A stretch of DNA of 64,000 bases from Acanthamoeba sp. SK_2022b (Eukaryota; Discosea; Longamoebia; Acanthamoebidae): positions 1 through 64,000 of the forward strand of contig JANDJZ010000189.1 of the NCBI GenBank assembly GCA_027943245.1, written 5' to 3'. The first letter of the stretch is position 1. Each line of letters opens with the position of its first letter. Of the stretch, positions 1,320 to 41,012 are shown piece by piece. Position numbers and translations under genes: made by a program. The notes below the pieces were generated by a model that made no database searches, was not told the origin of the DNA, and saw nothing but the letters and a program-made list of their open reading frames with translations.

Positions 1320-3734
1320 TTACTCCTTGCGGGTGTACCTGAGCAGGCACGGATGAGCGGGGCCTGTATTGACGACGCACGCACGCAAGAGAGATCATAA
1401 GCTTTGTGAGACATAGCGCATCGTACCGAAGGAAGGAAACGTACCGACCACCATGGCAGTGTAATCAGGCTTGGGGAGCTCGCCGACGAGCTCGATGTCG
1501 AAGTTGCGCAGGAGAACGGACCAAATAGTCTTGATCTGAAGGTAAGCGAAGTTCTCACCCATGCAACCGTGACGGCCGGCGCCGAAGCCGAGGAAGCGAT
1601 ACTTCTGAGTCTGCTTGTCCTCCTCCACGAATCGCTCCGGATTGTACTGATCGGCGTTGGGGAACACCTCCTCCACCCTCATGCTCAGGGCCGGCGAGAC
1701 GAACACAACATCATCTGCGAGAGGGAAGTCAGCGGCCAAGCGGGAGCAACAGAGAGAGAGAAGAGAAAATGGTCGTGTGCCCACCTTTGGGAACGTAGTA
1801 GTCCTTGTAGGAGAAGGGCTTGATGACCTTCCTCATGACGAAGAGAAGGGGCGGATACATGCGAAGAGCCTCCTTCACGCACCGATGCAGCTTGTCCATC
1901 TTGTTGAGAGCCTCCATCGTCAGCTCGTCACCGAACTCCTTCCTGATTTGCTGTTTGTTTCATGTGCACGAGCGACAAAGTTGCTGGTCAGTTGCTGCGT
2001 GCGCACGGCAACGAGTGAACGATCTTGTGCCGGGCGAGCGAACCTCCTGCTCCTCCAACACGCCGGGGAGGAACTTCTTCTTGTTGTTGGCTTCGAAAAG
2101 CAGGAGACCAGTCCACGAGCCGGTCACCGACGAGGTGTGTTGACCAGCAAAAAGCAAAGCAATCATCAAACCTGTCGTCGTTGTTGTTGTCGTCGTCGTT
2201 GTCAGAGTGCAGAGCGTACGTCGTGTGAGTGCCGCCACCTTTTACGTCAGCGCTTAATTAAAATCAAGGACACGCACCAGTGATTTCCTCGTCTGTGAGC
2301 GCCTGCTCCTCGCCGCGGTAGCGGGCATCCATGAAGACCTGAAGGCAATCATTGTGCTTGACCTCAGGGTTGGCCCTGCGCTCATCGATGATCTTCTTGA
2401 ACAGACGCACCATCGCCAGTCTCGCCTCGTCCCTCCTATTACCACAACCGAAAGAGCGTCAGAGATTGAGCACGAGCATACGCTGTGTGGTGGTGGTGGT
2501 GGTGGTGGTGGTGGTGGTGGTGGTGGTGGTGGTGGTGGTGGTGGTGAGAGAGAGAGAGAAAAGATGGGGTACCTTTTGTGGGCGGGAATGGGGAGGTAGG
2601 GGAAGAAGACGCTGATGGGGAGAAGGCCCTCATCGAGCGTCTGATACAGCTTGGCCACCTCGGAGAAGAGGTTCTCACGGATTTCCTTGCCCATGAGGCA
2701 ACGGCTAGCAGTCAGGATGATCAGTTCAGCCAGCGCATCCCTGATGTCGACCGTCTGTACGAGAATCGCTCCGGAGTTGTTAGCTACAGGTGAATTCGAA
2801 ATGGATTGACCGCTGCGACACCAAGTGCAGTGAGCAGCACGGACGCACCCCGGACTTGTCCCACTTGGCGAAGAAGTCCTCGGCCTCCTTGACAATGAGA
2901 GGCACGTAGGACTGGAGAGCCTTGGTGCTCAAGCTCGCCGCGATGAACTTGAGCTGCTGGTTCCTGTGAGCCAAATCGGCGCCGTACACAACGTTCGGAC
3001 CTAAAAAAACGGGTGAGTGGTGGCTATTCTGCAGGAGGGAAGAACTGCGATAAAAGTTTACCAAAAATAGGGACAGAAAACTGGTAGGGCTCGTCCTGCG
3101 ACAGCTCGGCATCGCCCTGCATAGAGGGGGGGGGGTATTGTCACGATAGTGGCACTGTGAGTTTGCAAGCAACTCTCGGAGTGATAATAGGGTCTTACTG
3201 TACCTGAGAGAAGAAGGGTACGTGGGCATCAGGGCCGACCAGGAAAGTGAGGCGCTGGCCGAACACCTTCATGGTGAAGATGTCGCCATACTAAAGCCGC
3301 CAAAGGCAGAGGAAGTCAGGGACCCGGGAACCCAATTGCGCGAATTGATCTCCGCCAATAAATAAATTAATAAATAAATAATTAAATTAAATGCTATAAT
3401 ACTTATTTTGTTGTCATCTCTCGAGGTTGGTGATCACCTTTTTATAAGATTCGGTGGTGTACTGAAGCGGCCCACCAGCAAAGCTGAGGCCGCTGCCCAC
3501 GAACGGGATGGCCGCGGAGACCACTGGCGGCAGGTTGTAACCTCCGTACTAGCATAGGAGAGAATCAGCTCACGTGAAATTGTCCCTTAATTGTGCAAAT
3601 TGCTCAAAATCTTGCGAGAGTACCTTTCGCCACTCGCGGACTTTGACGATAATGGCGAGGAGGGCCACGAGGACGAGGGGCCCGAATATGAACGGATGCG
3701 AAGAAAAGGCGTCAAGAGCCGCAGCAGCAACCAT
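1320..3734 (-). CDS. CYP51: sterol 14-alpha-demethylase, cytochrome P450 51 (486 aa, 11 exons)
   Basis: Blocks 3734-3624, 3548-3438, 3290-3204, 3116-3062, 3000-2849, 2754-2573, 2432-2278, 2171-2044, 1950-1785, 1714-1445 and 1363-1320 join in phase to 486 residues, the normal CYP51 length. An N-terminal membrane anchor (FIFGPLVLVALLAIIV) is followed by the substrate-recognition region (LIILTASRCLMGKEIR), the I-helix FAGQHTSSVTG, the K-helix ExxR (KEALRMYP) and the heme-binding motif FGAGRHGCMGE with its cysteine. The enzyme oxidatively removes the 14-alpha methyl of lanosterol/obtusifoliol-type sterols at the ER with a P450 reductase and is the azole target. The last exon (ends RYTRKE) is only 44 nt. 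Intron 6 carries a long GGT repeat. The ILTASRCLMG and GQHTSS signatures separate it from other P450s. Confidence 0.97.
2486..2546. repeat. (GGT)n microsatellite in CYP51 intron
   Basis: About 20 perfect GGT units lie between exons 6 and 7 of CYP51, directly followed by a GA run. Read on the coding strand it is a CCA/ACC tract inside the intron, so it does not enter the protein. Confidence 0.97.
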
Positions 3735-31120: not shown

Positions 31121-34100
31121 TGAGGGGATGGATGGACGATGGCATTGAAGAGGGGCATGTACGAGCTTCTCGATCTCGCGCAAAAAGTCAGGAATGAGGA
31201 TTGCAAGGCCAGGTAGGGGAAGAGAGAAGAGCTGTGTACAGTTGCGCACGACCACCCACACCACCGAGCTGTGCGAGGCCAGACCCTGGGAGCAAAAGAA
31301 TCGCGAAAGGAAAATGAGCGCCTGTTTGTGGCACCGAGGCGAGTGAGTGTAGAGAGCGCACCATCTGGATGGCGCGATAGAAATGGGAGATGAGGTCGAT
31401 GTGCGGGGGCTTGTAGGTCTTGCGGGTGAAAAGTTTACAGAGAGTCGCATAGGCCGTGATCCGCCCGCGGTTGCGCTTCCTACGAACGGCAAGAGAGCAC
31501 ATCAACAGAGGCCACACACCTCGCGACCAATGCCGCACGCGCTGTGTCGTGGTGTGCGGTTGTGGGCATGTGCGTACTCGTCGACAGCCGAGGCTTCGAG
31601 AATCCAGGGAAGGAAGATCTGCTGCAAGGGGATGGGGGGCTCGGCGGTGATCTCCAGCCTGTCCTCGGCTTCGCACAAAAGGTCAACCACCTACAGCCAA
31701 CGTCGAGATTCACGTGAGATGATGATGGTAGTGCATGCGTGCTGGCTGATTCGACGCTGAGCGCGCGTGTACCTGACTGACGCAGCTAATGGCGGTGGAA
31801 AAGTTGGGCGGGTCCTTGATGTCGCACAGGTTGCCCAGGATGTCTGCTCTCGTTATCACTCCAATTAATTGTCTTCTTTCAAATGAAGGCAGGTGGGGAA
31901 CGCGTACGCAGGATGGTGTCCCACATGTTCTGGATGCTCTGTTGGGTCCACGTCATGGAGGTGAGGCGAACGTCCCTGGGCCTGTTGTCGACAACAATGG
32001 GAATGAGTGAATGAACGATCACAGCAGCGGAGCGTGGGAGGGTCGGGGCGAACCGCATGGGGGTGGCCGCGACGCCGGTGGACGAGGAGGAAGTGAGGAA
32101 GGGCTTCTCCTTTTTCTTGTCGTCGCCGGCCTCGGACTCCTTCTCCTTGCTGTCCTCGGCTTCCTCGGCCACGTTGCCTTTCTTCTTCTTGGGCTCGGGC
32201 GTGACGGGCTTGGGGTAGGCGTGCTCGATAAGGATATAAGTCAGCTGCAGCACCTTTTCCTCCCACTGCGTCAGCGTGGCCTTCCAGTTGACCAGCGTCG
32301 CCAGTTTGACGCTGAAGTCCTGCCACATAGCCTCTGTCGTCACTTCCGACCGGATCCACACCAGGAACAGCGACTGGCGGTTTGGAAGGGAGGGGAGGAA
32401 GCGGTCAGGCAAGCAAACGCCTCAGTGTTGTGGGCCACCACCAAGCCAGGGCTGAGAGGCCCACCTGGAGCATGATGTCGGCGACGTTGTTGGTGGGCGC
32501 CACGGAATCGAGAGCGAAAGGCGAGGTGGAGATGAGCAGCTCGTGGGTGGTGTCGAGCATAGTCTGCTGCAGGAACACCCACGTGTCGGTGAAGAGAAAG
32601 CGCGAGAGTTCGAGCGGGAAGGAAGTGTAGATGTTGAGCAGCTCCTTGATGAGGAACGCATGACGCTCGAATTGCTCCAACGTCTTGGAAGAGATGAAGA
32701 ATATGCGCGACAGGTTGTCGATGAATTTCTGGGTTTTGCATCACCATCGTCATACACCATCCGGGTATCAAGACCTGTCAGCATCACCCTCAACATCGCG
32801 ATCAAAATGGCGCGACGCCGCAGTGTACCTTCCAGTACTGCTGCCTCCACTCATCGGTGACCTTGATCTTGACGGGCGAAATGGACTGCGCGCCCGCGAT
32901 GACAAAGAGACTCGTTAACCCCGGCATGTTTAAACTATTTGGCGGAGTTATTTACGTGAAAAGAAAGCTCGGGGAGGCATACGAGGAGGATGTTCTTGAA
33001 GATGTCCATCGACTGTTTGATGATGACGTGCTGCCCAATTGGCAGACGGCAGGCCTGGCGAGAGATCTCCATCATGAGAGGACCTGTACGCACCATACGA
33101 CCGGCATGAACAACGAATCATGTTTGGGGGGAGGGTGCGAGCATACCGTTGGTGTTGTTCCAGATGATGGGGTTGAACGCCATATCGTCGGTCCAAATTG
33201 CGATCTGCTCGATGAGCGCGGCGAGGATCTCGGCGGGGCAGCCCTCCTCGAAGCGTTTCTCTGTTCGCATCCACTCGGGTAAGTCAACTCACACCTTTCG
33301 CAACGTGAGGGAGTGGGGAACAGCGACCATCAATGCTCTCGATAATGCCCAGCTCGAGAGAAATGCTGGGGAAGAACAGGCTGAAGTAGCTCTGTTTCCA
33401 CAGCTCGAACCAGAACTCGAACTTGCCCATCCTATTAGTACAATGCCCCACGAAGAAAGAATGTTTGCTTAAGCGTGAGTGCTGCGCTCGAGTTCAACCT
33501 ACAGTCTTTCGCATGGGTGATTAGATGTGCGGCGAGATGGTTGAGGAGAGGGCGCTTGACCTTTCGGGGCGGGAGATGAACTCGAAGTAGTATTTGGTGA
33601 GCTCTACGGCGTCGCTGCGGGTGGGGCTCTGGAGGCCGGGAGCGAGACACGCCATTTCGGGCGACGAGGCAAAGGAGGGGTCGGCTCGCTTTCGCTTGTC
33701 CTCGCGCTCGCGCTCCTTCTCCGACAGCCGGTTCTCGTTCTTCTCCTCCTCCGGTCGCAGGAAGAACGGCTCGTAGATGATTGCCGCAGCAAACTTATTA
33801 ACCTAGAAAATAGAGTATCAATGTTACAAAAGCACGTAGCAAACTTAAATCATCATAAACTGCACAAAAAACAGCAAACACATACCTGCTCCTCCATTTG
33901 TTCACCGAGCACTTCCATGAAGGTGAGTAGCAGGTCCAAGCCATCTTTGCGAACGCACTGCTTGTTGTGTTCGTTAAGGCAGCTGTCCATCACACGACCT
34001 GAGGAGTGGAGAGTGAGCAGGCGAGGAGGGATAGATGGTTGCAAGAAAGGAGGAATGGCAATAGTACTCAAGTTGGCGTACTGCCATTTCTTCCTGATCT

Positions 34101-34603
34101 GCGGAGAGAGGAGCAGGATGAACTGCTTGAGCACGGCGATCACCGACTGCACATTGGGTATGTGCTGCTTCTTTTCTGTCCCGTTTCCACAGACCGCAAC
34201 CCGAGTAACATGTGCACACAAACGTGTAAAAACAAAGCGCGCCTGGGGAGGGAGGGAGCAAGGGCACACGAACCCTTCTTCTGGGAGGACTCGAGATCGG
34301 CGAAACGAGCGAGCAGCACGGCAAAGATCTGTTCATACTTTTCGACAAAGAATGCTTTCACCTCCTCTTTGGTTCCGCTCTCTGTTGCAGTTACAGTGTG
34401 ATTTGATAATAAATAATTAAAACACTGGCGTAACTATTAAATGTGGGAACATTTTCAAACAAAATGACAAAGCTGAATTGAAAGTTGCGGGGGGCACCAA
34501 TGAAGGCGACAAGGGATTTGAAGCGCTTGGCGGGCTTCTCTTTTTCCTTCAGGAAGGTCTTTAGCTTGGTCTGCGCCTTTTGCGACAGTGATGCGGCGCT
34601 CAT
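26776..34603 (-). CDS. Ral GTPase-activating protein alpha-like (RalGAP/tuberin family, about 1,700 aa, about 32 exons)
   Basis: The C-terminal Rap/Ran-GAP domain is encoded from about 27,880 to 26,900: VGLIYVKEGQNHQHEIL, YSDFVQSLGW, GFLGGLDR, then KKRHVGNDAVHIVWTENKR, FNDVHIVVYPMANGLYKIQV and FGPLQDGMIVNK. The asparagine of HVGND is the catalytic Asn thumb of this GAP class. HIVWTENKRDY and IVVYPM are especially RalGAP-alpha-like. The long helical N-terminal part (MSAASLSQKAQTKLKTFLKE from 34,603, ALIEQIAIWTDDMAFNPIIW, NMWDTIL and many more exons) matches the tuberin-type scaffold that binds a beta subunit. Expected role: GTP hydrolysis on Ral/Rheb-like GTPases. About 32 coding blocks are recognisable, but I did not fix every splice site. 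Several introns carry GT repeats and one an 8-bp minisatellite. Confidence 0.92.
27212..27254. repeat. (GT)n microsatellite in RalGAP intron
   Basis: About 21 GT units between the last two coding blocks of the RalGAP gene. On the coding strand it is an AC/CA tract. Confidence 0.95.
27917..28027. repeat. 8-bp minisatellite (GGCGTGGT), about 14 copies
   Basis: Fourteen near-perfect copies of GGCGTGGT in an intron of the RalGAP gene, between the exon ending in ELDKVNA and the exon beginning REVAKVGLIYV. It is G-rich on the plus strand, with paired-G tracts. Confidence 0.97.
31075..31119. repeat. (GT)n microsatellite in RalGAP intron
   Basis: About 22 GT units in a second intron of the RalGAP gene. 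Confidence 0.95.
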
Positions 34604-34870
34604 CTTCTCGGTGATTTAATCACGGAAGAGATTGTGGTCCTCAACTGGCGCAATAAAATAATACAAACTCCTAACCTTATCGTTCGCTCCTTGACGTAGG
34701 AACCTGTCCGTGCTGAGCCAACAATAAATAGATAAAAAGAAAATCAAGCCACTGTTCGGGCCTCGTGGGTATCCAACGCGCTTCCTGCCGACACGTTAAT
34801 TACACCCCGCTCTCATTGGTACCGCGCTTCCTGCCGCAAGGTTTATTAGAATGCGCATGCACAACCAGCT
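34604..34870. promoter_or_regulatory. RalGAP promoter region
   Basis: Upstream of the RalGAP start codon. It still has normal CpG content; the CpG-poor repeat island begins just beyond. No named motif. Confidence 0.4.
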
Positions 34871-35318
34871 TTATTGGACTTTGATTTTTATGCATTCGCA
34901 CTAATAGGGCAGTGCCTTTTTTCATAATTACCAGAACTGATCATTTCTGACTACTTCAGTAAGGAATAGGGCCAGATTGATTACCTTAAACTGGTGGACT
35001 AAAGCAGAGGTTCAGAAAAAAGTAACAATGTCACTGTAATAACATGGATCCATGTAGTGCCCTAGGAGGTGGCATAGGAGTGTTTGCACCAGCAGTGATT
35101 GTTAAGTCCACCTTGCCAATCCCAGAAACCAGCCTCTATTATCTAATAAAAGGTCCAGTCATTTTAAATTGATTTTGATTTAAAGATTTAGCTAGGTTCT
35201 CATGTACCAGCACCAACTTGATGCCATAGTGCTTCAATCATTGATGATACTCACCAGGTTGTGAGGTCACAATCATCAGCGTACTCTCATTGTCACAGTA
35301 GATCAGCATTCAACTCAC
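34870..35318. repeat. CpG-poor repeat sequence with a TIR-like fragment
   Basis: Contains, near 35,007-35,032, a copy of the TIR end (CAGAGG-TTCAGAAAAAAGTAACAATG). At 35,151-35,185 it has a segment shared with the 20.6-kb island. No gene. The expected 3' LTR of the Copia element is not found here. Confidence 0.6.
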
Positions 35319-35595
35319 TCAATCAAGTCCTAAGTCATTGTAGAAGTGGCTTAGGAAGATTGTGTGCTTGATAGCTATGGCCAGCACATTGAGTTTGGCC
35401 TCAGCAGTCAATGTAGCTATGCAGGATTGGTTCTTCACTCTCCAGTAGACCAGGCCACCTGCAATCATGTAGAGGATGCCAGACATTGACTTGCACATAG
35501 TCTTGTCTCTGGCCCAGTCCACATCTGAGAAGCCTCTGGTCATAAGGCCACTCATGTCTGGCATGTATCATATCACCAGCTCTTGCATGCCACAC
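35319..35595 (-). pseudogene. Copia RNase H fragment
   Basis: The fragment GFSDVDWARDKTMCKSMSGI followed by LVYWRVKNQSCIATLTAEAK aligns with the Copia RNase H active-site region (consensus D-A-D-W, SKKQ, STAEAE). Several residues look like CpG-decay substitutions. Confidence 0.85.
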
Positions 35596-35732
35596 AAGTA
35601 CCTGAATAAGTGTTTCACCATGGCCCAGTGTTCCCCCCCATAGGCGTTCAGATGCCTACTGAGAACACATGTCACATACACAATGTCCAGTCACTAGGCC
35701 AAGGCAATGTAGTTGAGCCGCCCTATGGTAGA

Positions 35733-36560
35733 TCAATACAGGACGCCAACAAACTCCGGTGGTGTCTTCTCAAGTGTAGGGAGCTGGAGGCTGGGCTCCA
35801 TGGGCGTGCCAACTGCCTTCAAAGTTGCAAATCCAAAGTCATGTAGAAGTTCTTGTATCTTGCCTGCTTGACATAGTAGTATCAACCCATCTTCATCATC
35901 ACATATCACTTTGAGTGACAGGATTGAAGTTGTAATGCCTAGGTCAATCATCTTGAATCCATCATGTAGCACCTTCTTGATGCCTGGTACAAACCATTCT
36001 GGCATGTAGATCACACAGTCATCAACATAGACTGCTATGTAGACTGCATGCTTGCCCTCATACCAGATGTAGACACACAGGTTAGCACACATCAGCATGA
36101 ATCCTCTCATATGTAGATGCACATTGAGCATCCAGTTCCACTCAAGGGGTGCTTGTTTGAGTCCATAAAGACTCTTGCATAGTAGACAGACATGATCTGG
36201 TCACCCCTTGTCCACAAAGCCCTCAGGTTGGCACACATAGTTTTCTTCAGGAAGGGTGGCATTGAGGAACACTGTAGTTACATCCATCTGATGGCCTGCA
36301 TAGCCAGCCTGTATGGCTATCACAATGAGTACCTGTAGGTGCTCAAGACATACTACCAGTGTGAACATCTCATCAAAGTCTACCCCATAGACTTGAGTGA
36401 AGCCTCTCACTATCCAATGGGCTTTGAACCAGTCAATTGAGCCATCCACATGATGCTTGACCTTGAATAGCCACTTGGTGTCAATGATCTTCCTCCTGGC
36501 AGGTGGGGGTACCAGTTCAAACATACCATTCATCATTATCGCGTTGTACTCATCACACAT
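35733..36560 (-). pseudogene. Copia reverse transcriptase fragments
   Basis: Two open blocks. The upstream one (36,560-36,201) has IIDTKWLFKVKHHVDGSIDW, GFTQVYGVDFDEMF and HQMDVTTVFLNATLPEE. The downstream one (36,131-35,733) has YIAVYVDDCVIYMPEW with the catalytic YVDD. They are typical Copia RT fingers and palm, separated by a stop/frameshift near 36,190. Confidence 0.88.
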
Positions 36561-36884
36561 GGCAGCTTTCCAGTCTTCAGCATAGCGTGCAACAAGGCAA
36601 CAGCTTCAATGCACGTTGATGGGATCTTGATGCTATTCTCACCCTGGTACAGCTTGTCCTCTCTTGCTACACAGGCATGAAACTCTTGAGTAGAGTTTGG
36701 GTGCTGTCCTCGTGCATGCTGGCAGCTTCTTGGGTGTGGGCCACATTCTGTCACACCACAGTATTGGCGCAAGTTTCTTCTTGCTGGTCATCTCACATCC
36801 TCCGTCGTCCTGCTCTTTGTCTGATGGGGTCGCATCCTCTGCTTGGCTGGGGTTGCTGGTCTCTTCTACCTTGCTGGCCAGTTC

Positions 36885-37186
36885 TTTTCTTGATCCTTGG
36901 CTTCCTCTTTGATGGGTCCTTGATGAAGGGCAACCAGTTCAGGTTCATTGTGGCAAATTTCCACCCTGGTCATGGGTGGCAATGGCAGCAGTACAGCAAG
37001 CACTAGGTCCACATCCAGGTCTTGTATGTTGATTGGCTCCTTGCTGGGGCCTTCTGGAACATTAAATATCACATCTCTCATCTCTAACACTTTATTTTCA
37101 ATCAGGATTCAGTGGTAGATTCTGAGGCATGTTCAATCTGCCAGCTTGCTTCTACCTACTGGGTTGGTGAGCACCTTGACACGCTG
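36885..37186 (-). repeat. tandem duplication unit A inside the Copia element
   Basis: 302 bp matching the next 331 bp, with about 30 bp deleted near its right end. It encodes the spacer after the integrase core (DVIFNVPEGPSKEPINIQDL). Decayed CpG sites read CA on the plus strand. Confidence 0.9.
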
Positions 37187-37517
37187 TTTTCTTGATCGTT
37201 GGCTTCCTCTTTGATGGGTCCTTGATGAAGGGTGACTGGTTTGGTTTGTTGTGGTGAATTTCTGCCCTGGTTGTGGGTGGCAATGGTGGTGGTACAGTGA
37301 GTGCTAGGTCCATGTCTGGGTCTTGTATGTTGATTGGCTCCTTGCTGGGGCCTTCTGGAATGTTAAATATTACATCTCTTGTCTCTAATGCTTTATTTTT
37401 GATCAGGATTAGGTGGTGTGAGGTGTCTGCTTGTGCCAGGCCAAGGTAGATTCTGAGGTGTGTTTGATCTGCCAGCTTGCTTCTACCTACTGGGTTGGTG
37501 AGCACCTTGACACGCTG
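37187..37517 (-). repeat. tandem duplication unit B inside the Copia element
   Basis: 331 bp, the fuller copy (DVIFNIPEGPSKEPINIQDP). At the positions where unit A reads CA, this copy reads TG on the plus strand. Both copies end in the same GACACGCTG. Confidence 0.9.
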
Positions 37518-38239
37518 ACCAAACCTGTGTAGGTGACTGATGTCTACATGTGATTTGCTCTTGTTGGACCACTGGCTGAGTGGGGTGTTGAAGTTGTTGG
37601 CTGTTGTTGGTAGCTGATTGTTGATTGCGCAGGCTGTGAGTGTGGCTTCTCCCCAGTACTTTGGTGCATGTCTGTGTCTTGAAGCATACACCTGACCATC
37701 TCTAGTAGTGTGTGGTTGAAGTGTTCTGCCACTCCATTGTGCTTGGGCGTGCTCCCTTGTGGTTGAACATGCTGCCTCCTGAGCAGTTGATCTGTACCTT
37801 GTTCCCCATCACCATGGCCATGGAGATGAGGTTCTTTGTGAGTCCTGGCGTGTACAGTACTCTTGCAAATGTCACTGTCTCCTTGACTCTGTCCACCTGC
37901 ATGTTTGTGTGTACAACTCTGAGCCCTTCGATCCTGCACTTGAAGTGTTTGCTGAGCAGTAGACTCTGCCCTTTGGCCTTGAGACTGATGTAGTTGTGTA
38001 ACCAGTCCTTCCTGCATGTAATGTGTGCAGTTGCTCTGGAGTCCAAGTACCAGTAGTCTTTGGACTCTGTGATGGCTAGTACTTGCTTGGTCGCTGAGAG
38101 AACGGTCTCTTCTCTTGCTCTGATACTTTGCTGGCCGCTTCCCTCTTCTCTGCCTGACCTCACTGCACTTGAAGCACTTACCAGTAAACTTTCTGGGTTT
38201 GCTGTTGGACTTTGTGTTGGAGTTTTGCTCCTGTTGTCC

Positions 38240-38866
38240 TCATGGTGCTTGGACAAAGTTAATGGTCTTGTGTGTTGCTGTCTTTGCAAAGTGGGTGGCC
38301 TTGTGCTGGAATAGTAGCTGCTTGGCCTCTCCATAGTTCATTTCTCTCACGCTCTTGATGATGGTCTGTATGGACTTGTACTCCTCCAGGAGTCCATTGA
38401 GCATGATTGTGAGTGCCAGGTTCTTGTCTACCTTGTAGTCCTGACCTGCCAGGTCCTTCATGGCCTTGTCTAGCTGCCTGAAGTACGTGTCCAAGGTCTC
38501 TCTGGGCTTGTATTGCATCTTCAAGTAGTGCTTGAGGTAGAGTGTGCAGTACCCTGTAGTCTTTGGTGTGAGCTGCTCATTGAGTGCCTTCAGCATCTCC
38601 CTTGGGTCCTTGAGGTGCGAGCATATCGACCTGAACAGTGTATCCAGACACAAAATGATAAAGCCAGCCGCCTGCTGCATTCTCATTTGTCTGTCAATGT
38701 CTCCATTGTTGGCCTTCCCCTTGCCCATGCCTCCAGGCTGGTTGATGAATGCAACATCCCACAGGTTCCATGAGATCAAGATGAACTCAAGCTCCTCATG
38801 CCAGGTGCGGTACTTGGTGACCAATCAGAGTACATATCTCTTGGTGACTTCATAGTTACTCATCAT
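38240..38866 (-). pseudogene. Copia gag (UBN2-type) with in-frame stop
   Basis: The ATG at 38,866 or 38,863 opens MSNYEVTKRYVL, then a TGA (38,827-38,825). After it the same frame continues through YRTWHEELEFILISWNLWD, the helical Gag body and YKSIQTIIKSVREMNYGEAK. This is the standard Copia Gag pattern. The stop is explained by a CGA-to-TGA change. The CCHC zinc knuckle expected at the C-terminus is not recognisable. Confidence 0.82.
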
Positions 38867-38872
38867 GAGCGT

Positions 38873-38884
38873 GGGCCCATAACC
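38873..38884 (-). other. primer-binding site, half-tRNA type
   Basis: Minus-strand GGTTATGGGCCC directly after the LTR is complementary to the anticodon arm of initiator tRNA-Met (GGGCCCATAACC). This is the internal priming site used by Drosophila copia, not the usual tRNA 3' end. Confidence 0.8.
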
Positions 38885-38996
38885 TGTTGTGATGTACACT
38901 TTGTGGTGAAGAGTAAAGTGTGAAGTGAGAGAGAACAGGGTTCTCTCTGGTTTTATTACTGCTGAATATATTGTTGTAGACAGTTGTACTACAACA
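38885..38996 (-). repeat. 5' LTR, 112 bp, TGTTG...CAACA
   Basis: Bounded by the inverted pentamers TGTTG and CAACA and followed directly by the primer-binding site. It is very short for a Copia LTR. No second copy is found in the window, so the boundary is inferred from the terminal motifs. Confidence 0.65.
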
Positions 38997-41012
38997 TAAC
39001 TCCTAAAACTTAAGGCATGCCTAAATGTGCTAGGTGCTCATCAAGTCCTACCTCATTTGGTGTTCCAGAGTGACTGTTGATCTGAGTACCTTATTAGGTA
39101 ACTCACAACAAAAGCTTCATGCAGGCCTTGCCCCTATTGCTCACTTCTTGGCGCCCCTCTTGGCAAGGGTGGGTGCCTCCATCATGCTCACTGTTACCAA
39201 TGTTGCCCTTGCTCTCCTTGTCATGTTCCATTGCTTGTTGGGGGGGGGGGGCAATCCACCGCTGGCTCACTGCAGCGCTGTGCATTTGTTTTTGGTTTTC
39301 ACTGGGCGGAGGAGGATGGGAAGAAAGAAATATCAACATAAATGCATCATTTTATCTGCCAATCCGAAATGGCCCTGTTGCCACCAATAGCTAGCTTGCA
39401 CAGGTTCATGTGTTCTGCAGCTTAACTTGAAGTGACTGTGCTCATTTTGTTGAGGTTTTGTTTGCATCGCAGCTACCACAAAAACAGGAATAGGTTTTAA
39501 CTCCAAATCTCCCATTTGCCAAGATAAAATTACTTTTGGTGAAAATGCCAACTCATTTTTTGCAAAAGATAACAAGTGATTTTTAGACATGTGGAGGTCA
39601 CAGCAGTAATGGTGGTTCAGTAAAGATGTTGTTGTAAGAAGCAGTCAACAAGGTCAGTCTCCCAGCCCCCATCCCTTACTCCGTGATGAGCATTTAGATT
39701 TCATGAATTCTGCAGCAGCTCCATCATGGTGGCTGGTTACTGGTAAATGGTGCAAATCACAAACATACAACATTAACTGTCACCTTTAAGAAACATGACA
39801 GCTGTGTACCCAAATGCTGTTGCTGGCTCAATGGCTCTGCACTTTCATCATCTCCTTCACCTCTTACTGCTGCACTGTCATGCATGTGCAGGTGAGAGCT
39901 GCTGCATTGATGGCATGGCATCTAGGTTTTGCCAGTGCACCTCTGTCACCACAAAATGCCCACCATCTGGGCATGCATGCATACCAATGCTCATGCATCT
40001 GCTTCACCACAAAAATGGTTGCCATATGGTCATGTGTGGGCACATCACAACTGGCCATCTGGTCCTGTATGTGCATGTGGTGCTGATGGCCTTTTTGGGG
40101 TTTATGCTTGCCATACCATTGCATATGTGTATGCAATGCTCATGCACCTCTGTCACCACAAAAATGCCTGCCATCTGGTCATGTGTGGGCAGGTGATGAT
40201 GGTGGTCTTCTTGGCATTTCTCACTGCTCTACCATTGCGTATGTGTATGCAGTGCTCAAGCACCACCTTTACCATAAAAATGCTTGCTATCAGGTGTATT
40301 TTATCTTTATCTTTACAAGATGGGAGATTTGGAGTTAAAACCTATTTTGAGCTAAATCTTGAAATCAAAATCAATTTTAAAAAGCCTCTCCCTGTTTTGT
40401 TGTGGTTTTCACTGTGCTCTCGTTTTGTTGAAGTTTTGTTTGCGTTGCTGCTACCACAAAAACAGGAATACAGGAATGCAGGCCATTACAAAAGTATGTG
40501 TATGTTATGAAATGAATCTGTCTGTGGTGTGGCACTGCTCCTTGTAGAGCAAGTCCCCCGACAGGTTTGGGGCTCAAGTTAGCTTGTTCAGCAGTTGTGA
40601 TGTGTGGGAAAAGGGTCAAGCATGGGTCTCCCATCCTCCCCTCCACACAGAAAGATCTATTAGCCTCTATGTATGGATTTGTAATCTGCCTAAAGCTACT
40701 GGTCAGACCAACATGGATTTTTGAACAAGGTGCTTTCCCAAGAAGGAAAAGAACAACAGACAGGAAGGATGACACGTTCAAGCCTACACTGAGCTGTACC
40801 AGAAGTACATCAACTCATACATCATGCAAGAAATCATACTTCACCAGCTCCCCTAATACCAACATTGCTTGCCAACTGGCCTGGCCACTGTGTCTTCAAC
40901 CTACACGAAAATTGTATGGTGGTTATCCAGTATTTCGCTTCCTATTTTGCAGGTAGCTGAAAAGGCCAACCAACCAAATTGCACTGCCACAACAAAGCTT
41001 ATCCAAGCACAC
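38997..41012. repeat. CpG-poor dispersed and tandem repeats
   Basis: No gene. 39,740-39,935 is homologous to the flanks of the TIR element at 20.8 kb. 39,930-40,290 holds about three degenerate tandem units of roughly 120-130 bp carrying CACCACAAAAATG and ATATGTGTATGCA-type words. 39,430-39,478 recurs directly at 40,410-40,470. 39,492-39,520 recurs inverted at 40,318-40,345. These look like nested remnants of several element families. Confidence 0.7.

Follow-up and report, generated by a model that had tools for sequence, protein, structure and literature searches.

The window analysed here, a stretch of 64,000 nucleotides (C357:1-64000) from a 45-Mb draft assembly in 1,129 contigs, contains a broken Copia LTR retrotransposon coded on the minus strand. 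The element is identified as Copia by the presence of both the Copia gag and RVT_2 domains in Pfam. Its recognisable parts, all on the minus strand, are the reverse transcriptase at 35733..36605 (RVT_2, PF07727), whose frame is broken by a stop (one TGA listed), a piece of the Copia Pol beta-barrel domain at 37702..38337 (PF22936) and gag at 38240..38824 (PF14223). A candidate LTR at 38884..39110, also on the minus strand, is 95-97% similar to a block that five other loci (L002, L005, L018, L026 and L029) carry towards the other end of their internal region; a search of window positions 33501-35500 found no partner for it. The element sits in a repeat-filled, CpG-depleted island of about 6 kb (34851..40850), where the observed/expected CpG ratio in 300-bp bins is 0-0.56 and mostly below 0.3. 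The left edge of the island is passed within some 300-600 bp, the bins at 34501, 34801 and 35101 having ratios of 1.14, 0.43 and 0.08; on the right the ratio climbs over about 600 bp, from 0.12 to 0.75 between 40501 and 41101. In the window, CpG loss stays inside this island. Beside the Copia element lies a non-coding repeat (39490-40390) with inverted ends of roughly 80 bp and at least 142 matches, counted from 40 scored of 202 candidates; with six usable CpG sites in 21 rows it offers too few for a polarity count. Window positions 39878-40800 are identical over 923 bp to C418:11961-12883, where C418 ends, an unmerged overlap of contigs.

Two tandem units, whose boundaries the initial annotation had placed correctly, adjoin in the pol region of the element: A (36885..37186, minus strand) and B (37187..37517, minus strand). 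A has a 30-bp gap relative to B. The two units had been reported, from a count by eye, to differ at about 19 positions reading CA in A and TG in B on the plus strand, with none reversed; the alignment gives 18 and none. These 18 sites make up 36 of the 39 transitions between the units, and the remaining differences are three transitions, two transversions, the 30-bp gap and one 1-bp gap. Across 32 scored CpG-type sites, the states in A and B are CA/TG at 18, TG/TG at 11, CA/CA at two and CG/CG at one, so that A carries 20 CA to 11 TG and B carries 2 CA to 29 TG (Fisher p 2e-6). The absence of reversed sites is unsurprising by itself, since these totals predict about 0.7 of them; what is surprising is that the totals are opposite. 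An interpretation of the 18:0 count as purely polar hits following the split of the units was rejected, as independent states with 65% CA in A and 94% TG in B fit equally well. The claim that each copy was mutated on one strand only therefore nearly holds for B and has to be relaxed for A, where the excess is about two to one.

The sites in question descend from CG, as had been proposed. In an alignment of 31 rows, made up of A, B and 29 loci out of 40 scored matches (ten of the 40 were left out), between 3 and 24 rows retain CG at each of the 18. A and B are also each other's closest relatives. When every column with CG in at least one row is set aside, they differ in one of 227 columns, against 4.6% for the median pair of rows, and the rows next nearest to A differ from it in 2 of 157 (L028), 4 of 196 (L003) and 6 of 227 columns (L002). 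On the 3.3-kb frame used below, A and B differ in two of 226 non-CpG columns; when the two are simply compared as a pair, with positions retained that are CpG elsewhere in the alignment, the count becomes 5 of 263 and makes them less sister-like. They have two variants in common. Of the other rows, 28 can be compared at these positions; none carries the first variant and one carries the second. On this sequence comparison, A and B look like sisters, born of a tandem duplication or of an unequal exchange that involved sister or allelic copies, and on our reading most of their CpG loss probably came after the split.

The contrast between A and B might instead reflect a chimera or misassembly that brought two decayed copies together, with the polarity of other copies being genuine. 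In L002 and L018 the sign does change at deletion junctions, and the assembly branches nearby, where C418 ends in the 923 bp that it has in common with the window. A join of two random copies is rejected by the mutual proximity of A and B, and their two common variants, rare or absent elsewhere, speak against a chimera in general; such a join would also leave the polarity of the other copies unexplained. We consider this explanation improbable. Resection around a break at the junction was rejected as well: by our reasoning it would leave TG on the left and CA on the right, and the window displays the reverse.

The polarity extends far past the two units, about 1.8 kb to the left of their junction and about 1 kb to the right. 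The stretch at 35384..37186, which includes A, is CA-polar (minus-strand C lost; 44 TG:135 CA:14 CG), and the stretch at 37187..38172, which includes B, is TG-polar (plus-strand C lost; 82 TG:10 CA:9 CG). To follow it across the family, 31 rows (29 loci and, from the window, the two sides of the A/B junction as separate rows) were placed on the coordinates of one real copy, with 372 CpG sites. The autocorrelation of strand sign, corrected for site frequencies, is 0.174, 0.162, 0.159, 0.137, 0.115 and 0.044 over distance classes from below 30 bp to 1,200-3,000 bp; the value of 0.115 belongs to 600-1,200 bp, and 60 column shuffles give 0 with a standard deviation of 0.002-0.009. A three-state model fitted with L021 left out outperforms site frequencies alone by about 300 log units. 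The observation of strand-polar CpG decay is real, and it is larger than initially reported.

Copy by copy, polarity is significant in 14 of 29 copies under a site-adjusted test with Bonferroni correction (strongest p 8e-24), which upholds the proposed per-copy polarity for these 14 and not for the other 15. The test leaves out L006 and L021 as near duplicates of L005 and L020, and counts the two parts of the window, one element, as two rows. Polar rows are found among those that have lost about 80% or more of their CpGs (14 of 17) and never among those below 70% decay (0 of 12). Eight of the polar rows are TG-rich and six CA-rich, the extremes in TG:CA being L027 (65:198), L002 (200:60), L028 (125:31) and both parts of the window. 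An even mixture of TG and CA within copies, which the initial annotation had named as evidence against its claim, is seen in part, as the 12 copies under 70% decay and three of the 17 highly decayed ones are not significantly polar.

Passive decay of methylated CpG in transposons turns CG into TG or CA and is expected to be strand-random. If such decay had acted here, the polarity would have to come from chance or shared ancestry. The 12 low-decay copies, taken individually, are compatible with strand-random hits; the 14 polar copies, with p down to 8e-24, are not. Shared ancestry is opposed by the agreement of mutated sites between copies of the same sign, which for most close pairs lies at 0.58-0.77, with L005/L006 and L020/L021, both of them duplicates, as exceptions. 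This is near the value that by our reckoning polarity alone would give, which argues against one common ancestor. We regard ordinary strand-random decay as the least credible of the explanations considered. A mechanism tied to the sense of the element was rejected too, because both signs are present among the polar copies.

Polarity is displayed by a second Copia family as well (nine rows, 157 sites). Its autocorrelations of 0.191, 0.149, 0.125, 0.137 and 0.096 exceed, in every distance class, the highest value obtained from 300 shuffles. Four rows have skewed TG:CA counts (L051 23:105, L097 13:69, L100 54:17 and L049 44:84), of which L051 and L097 seem to be relatives along part of the sequence and are therefore not fully independent; the other five have 58:54, 56:71, 65:58, 27:36 and 14:15. 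In all, 30 RVT_2 loci were collected, and 17 of them entered the all-against-all comparison only.

The loss is concentrated at CpG. Across the 31 rows CpG decay amounts to 25-93% against a non-CpG divergence of about 1-4%, which is the C-to-T hypermutation with few other changes by which repeat-induced point mutation (RIP) is recognised. Pairwise ratios of CpG to non-CpG rates range from about 16 to 340: low-decay pairs have 16-63 in families 1 and 3, family 2 has 39-192, the duplicated pair L005/L006 has 21, and the heavily decayed pairs A/B, L009/L019 and L010/L016 have 266-317. Short RVT_1 pairs, which have 26-27 CpG sites each and so too few to be of use, reach 338 with wide limits. Reverse-transcription errors add non-CpG changes to some pairs, so the contrast between these ratios is confounded and is not relied on here. 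The polarity of non-CpG changes correlates weakly with that of CpG changes (0.35 over the 31 rows). Sequence context has a limited influence: with respect to the 5' base, the mutated share in decayed copies varies only from 0.42 to 0.48 and reveals no clear 5' motif; the 3' base matters more, from 0.51 for G to 0.39 for C in decayed copies and from 0.28 to 0.15 in the others.

One-strand signatures are typical of AID/APOBEC-like enzymes, and the motifs of AID and APOBEC are 5'. Editing of cDNA or RNA by such an enzyme during retrotransposition might therefore be considered for an LTR element. Both signs occur, however, and the changes are concentrated at CpG; the 5' base effect is as small as stated above, and a search of the genome for the AID/APOBEC family PF08210 gave no match above the cut-off (best E 0.12). 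Editing of this kind is very unlikely. Of the strand-polar CpG deamination system initially proposed, the polarity stands, in 14 of 29 copies and in a second family; a dedicated deaminase is not directly supported by the search of this one deaminase family or by the 5' context. UDG-family genes are present in this genome. Since 5-methylcytosine deaminated to T escapes uracil repair, the restriction to CpG is explained without a new enzyme.

A more serious contender is the steady deamination of 5-methylcytosine under a lasting strand bias set by the site of insertion, for example where one strand stays single-stranded longer at replication forks or is exposed by outside transcription. Lineages that moved often would then be mixed and long residents polar. 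We hold this to be quite possible, at clearly less than even chances. It agrees well with the concentration of polarity in the most decayed copies, and with polarity being mostly a property of whole copies. Runs tests are mostly flat, with three of 29 copies beyond |z| 2 (L027 at -4.0, L002 at -3.2 and L016 at -2.1) and two at 2.0, which indicates that the strand sign is usually set for the entire copy and not in short tracts.

L002 and L027 are exceptions in which the sign switches within the copy. In L027, on a 345-kb contig, the counts pass from 39 TG:191 CA to 26:7 between sites 51 bp apart, which strains a bias owned by the locus, although the switch falls in a region where decayed copies are generally TG-rich; the model corrects for this per site. 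Positions 3000-3331 of the 3.3-kb frame (about 38.1-38.4 kb in the window) have more TG than CA in most decayed copies, with a share of 0.67-0.68.

Signs also differ between close neighbours. Opposite signs on the contig strand are found about 10 kb apart on C441 (L003 and L006) and 7 kb apart on C35 (L005 and L019), and the pattern of L006 is common to L005, from which it follows that the pattern predates the present place of L006. After their duplication, L005 and L006 acquired only eight new hits, 2 TG:6 CA, which depart from the sign of the pattern that they share (164 TG:70 CA). The closely related A and B adjoin with opposite signs, and the bias required, up to 8:1, would be a strong one. 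Each of these objections from neighbours and signs could be accounted for if the loci had been rearranged. Also on C441, Copia fragments (L101-L103, 26 kb) lie within degenerate (TTGTGGTGG)n and (CCACCACAA)n satellite arrays that run in either orientation; an inverted duplication is suggested there (about 12.7-14.5 against 23.8-25.7 kb), and some parts of the satellite are almost pure TG or CA on a strand.

As groups, low- and mid-decay copies display a weak correlation of sign, 0.03-0.08 up to 600 bp (z 1.2-4.7). In mid-decay copies the mutated status itself hardly clusters, with a value of 0.028 under 30 bp and values no more than 0.01 from zero at longer distances. Six low-decay copies have balanced counts of strictly private hits, ranging between 10:14 and 9:7 (p 0.87 for heterogeneity); the corresponding p in family 3 is 0.30, where L048 has 20 TG:10 CA (p 0.10). 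When private hits were counted more loosely, over 12 copies of low or middling decay, L011 had 0:9 and L017 5:0, with most copies near balance, and the strict count did not repeat these skews. CpG decay rises with the number of private non-CpG changes (rho 0.53, L006 and L021 left out), as steady decay would have it. Copies of similar non-CpG divergence, about 1.2%, can be decayed to very unequal degrees, 91% in L019 and 25% in L015, so that by this measure heavy decay does not always go with greater age. A scheme in which mixed decay was inherited and followed by one nearly pure polar pass was rejected, since clean and often-mutated sites are about equally polar. The near absence of clustering and the correlation with private changes favour a lasting bias, which also explains well the balanced private hits and the lack of extra polarity at clean sites.

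Two recent insertions of a CpG-rich Copia, L054 on C822 and L058 on C211, differ at 26 positions in 4,210 bp, comprising 24 CpG events and two non-CpG changes. Their left flanks are homologous only in the last 1.8 of 4 kb, so they are separate insertions. The hits in C211 are 15 TG:2 CA (p 0.002) and those in C822 are 2:5. The 17 hits in C211 show mild clustering (p 0.02 for the longest gap and 0.013 for the nearest neighbour). Polarity is thus present in C211 at about 4% decay; as this p of 0.002 was picked among 53 pairs listed, we treat it as a lead. Weak episodes on one strand would account for it, and a strand bias that lasts at the site would do so equally well, being supported by polarity at such low density.

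The explanation we prefer, while giving it slightly less than an even chance, is that methylated CpGs in the Copia copies were deaminated in strand-coordinated episodes, with an outcome like that of RIP but at CpG only. The CpGs of these very copies would first have been methylated and then deaminated, and we infer that the hits on one strand were coordinated across at least a kilobase and came in episodes, as opposed to steady decay. Each episode might have attacked one strand of the element. Alternatively, both strands might have been attacked, with replication sending an all-TG and an all-CA strand to different daughters; this possibility is our own, and under it a single event would have yielded both A and B. 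The agent would be methyltransferase-linked deamination or an exposed single strand, rather than an enzyme of the AID/APOBEC type. Action on one strand might come from an enzyme moving along it, as proposed for RIP in the available text of PMC7296669.

Because both signs occur, neither minus-strand cDNA nor transcription of the element itself can have produced the decay as a one-sided side effect. The strongest single piece of evidence for strand-coordinated episodes is the pair A and B, since a bias owned by the locus would have given both units the same sign. This evidence depends on a single junction of a draft assembly, close to a branch: the end of C418 in sequence identical to the window means that the assembler had other choices nearby. 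Little clustering of mutated status, balanced private hits and the rise of decay with private non-CpG changes all count against episodes.

The methylation that strand-coordinated episodes call for is known in Acanthamoeba castellanii, and bears on these copies if their host is of that genus; an exact Acanthamoeba 18S primer pattern had no match in the assembly. In A. castellanii, according to the available text of PMC12344493 and PMC12210455, 5-methylcytosine is CpG-only and enriched on LTR and LINE elements and on H3K9-methylated chromatin, and DNMT1 and DNMT3 are present (PMC12344493, available text). Methyltransferase fragments in the genome studied here are nearest to DNMT1 (C265, C832) and DNMT2 (C421); RIP requires a methyltransferase of the RID/DIM-2 type. 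DNA methyltransferase genes with long open frames also occur on C152, C44 and C231, among neighbours that look bacterial by eye, and these may be contaminant contigs.

RIP acts on duplicated DNA by homology, sparing single-copy DNA, with one strand hit per round, and takes place before meiosis in the sexual cycle. It is described as fungus-specific in the available text of PMC2621366 and PMC7882544. A search of the literature, with most subscription journals outside its scope, found no report of RIP-like, strand-polar CpG decay in amoebae or protists. The bolder proposition, that this amoeba has or once had a RIP-like defence outside fungi that mutates methylated CpGs of repeats strand by strand, with A and B as products of opposite strands joined by unequal exchange, is in our view rather unlikely. 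Were it true, a CpG-only, strand-polar counterpart of RIP would link silencing by 5-methylcytosine to mutation in another lineage. If a lasting bias of the site is responsible instead, dead transposons record which strand was exposed at each locus.

Several known processes resemble the decay in part. Passive decay of 5-methylcytosine likewise turns CG into TG or CA in repeats and differs in that 14 of 29 copies are polar here. Kataegis, the strand-coordinated clusters of mutation in single-stranded DNA, leaves similar one-strand runs; the changes seen here, unlike those of kataegis, are at CpG only, without a clear 5' motif, dense and kilobases wide. Basidiomycetes have RIP-like mutation of the CpG type in repeats and thus share the target. 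Silencing in A. castellanii provides the same CpG-only methylation on repeats (PMC12344493, PMC12210455, available text), and strand polarity of decay is not mentioned there, the words 'strand' and 'rip' being absent from the main text of PMC12344493. In RIP of Neurospora crassa, C-to-T changes in repeats form one-strand clusters, which make up 91.9% of clusters in the available text of PMC7296669. RIP departs from the present pattern in preferring CpA in most fungi (PMC2621366, available text), where CpG is the target here, and in its tight clusters, where the hits here are spread; the present host, moreover, is not known to be a fungus. We accordingly describe the decay in these Copia copies as RIP-like in outcome, and claim no membership in RIP for it.
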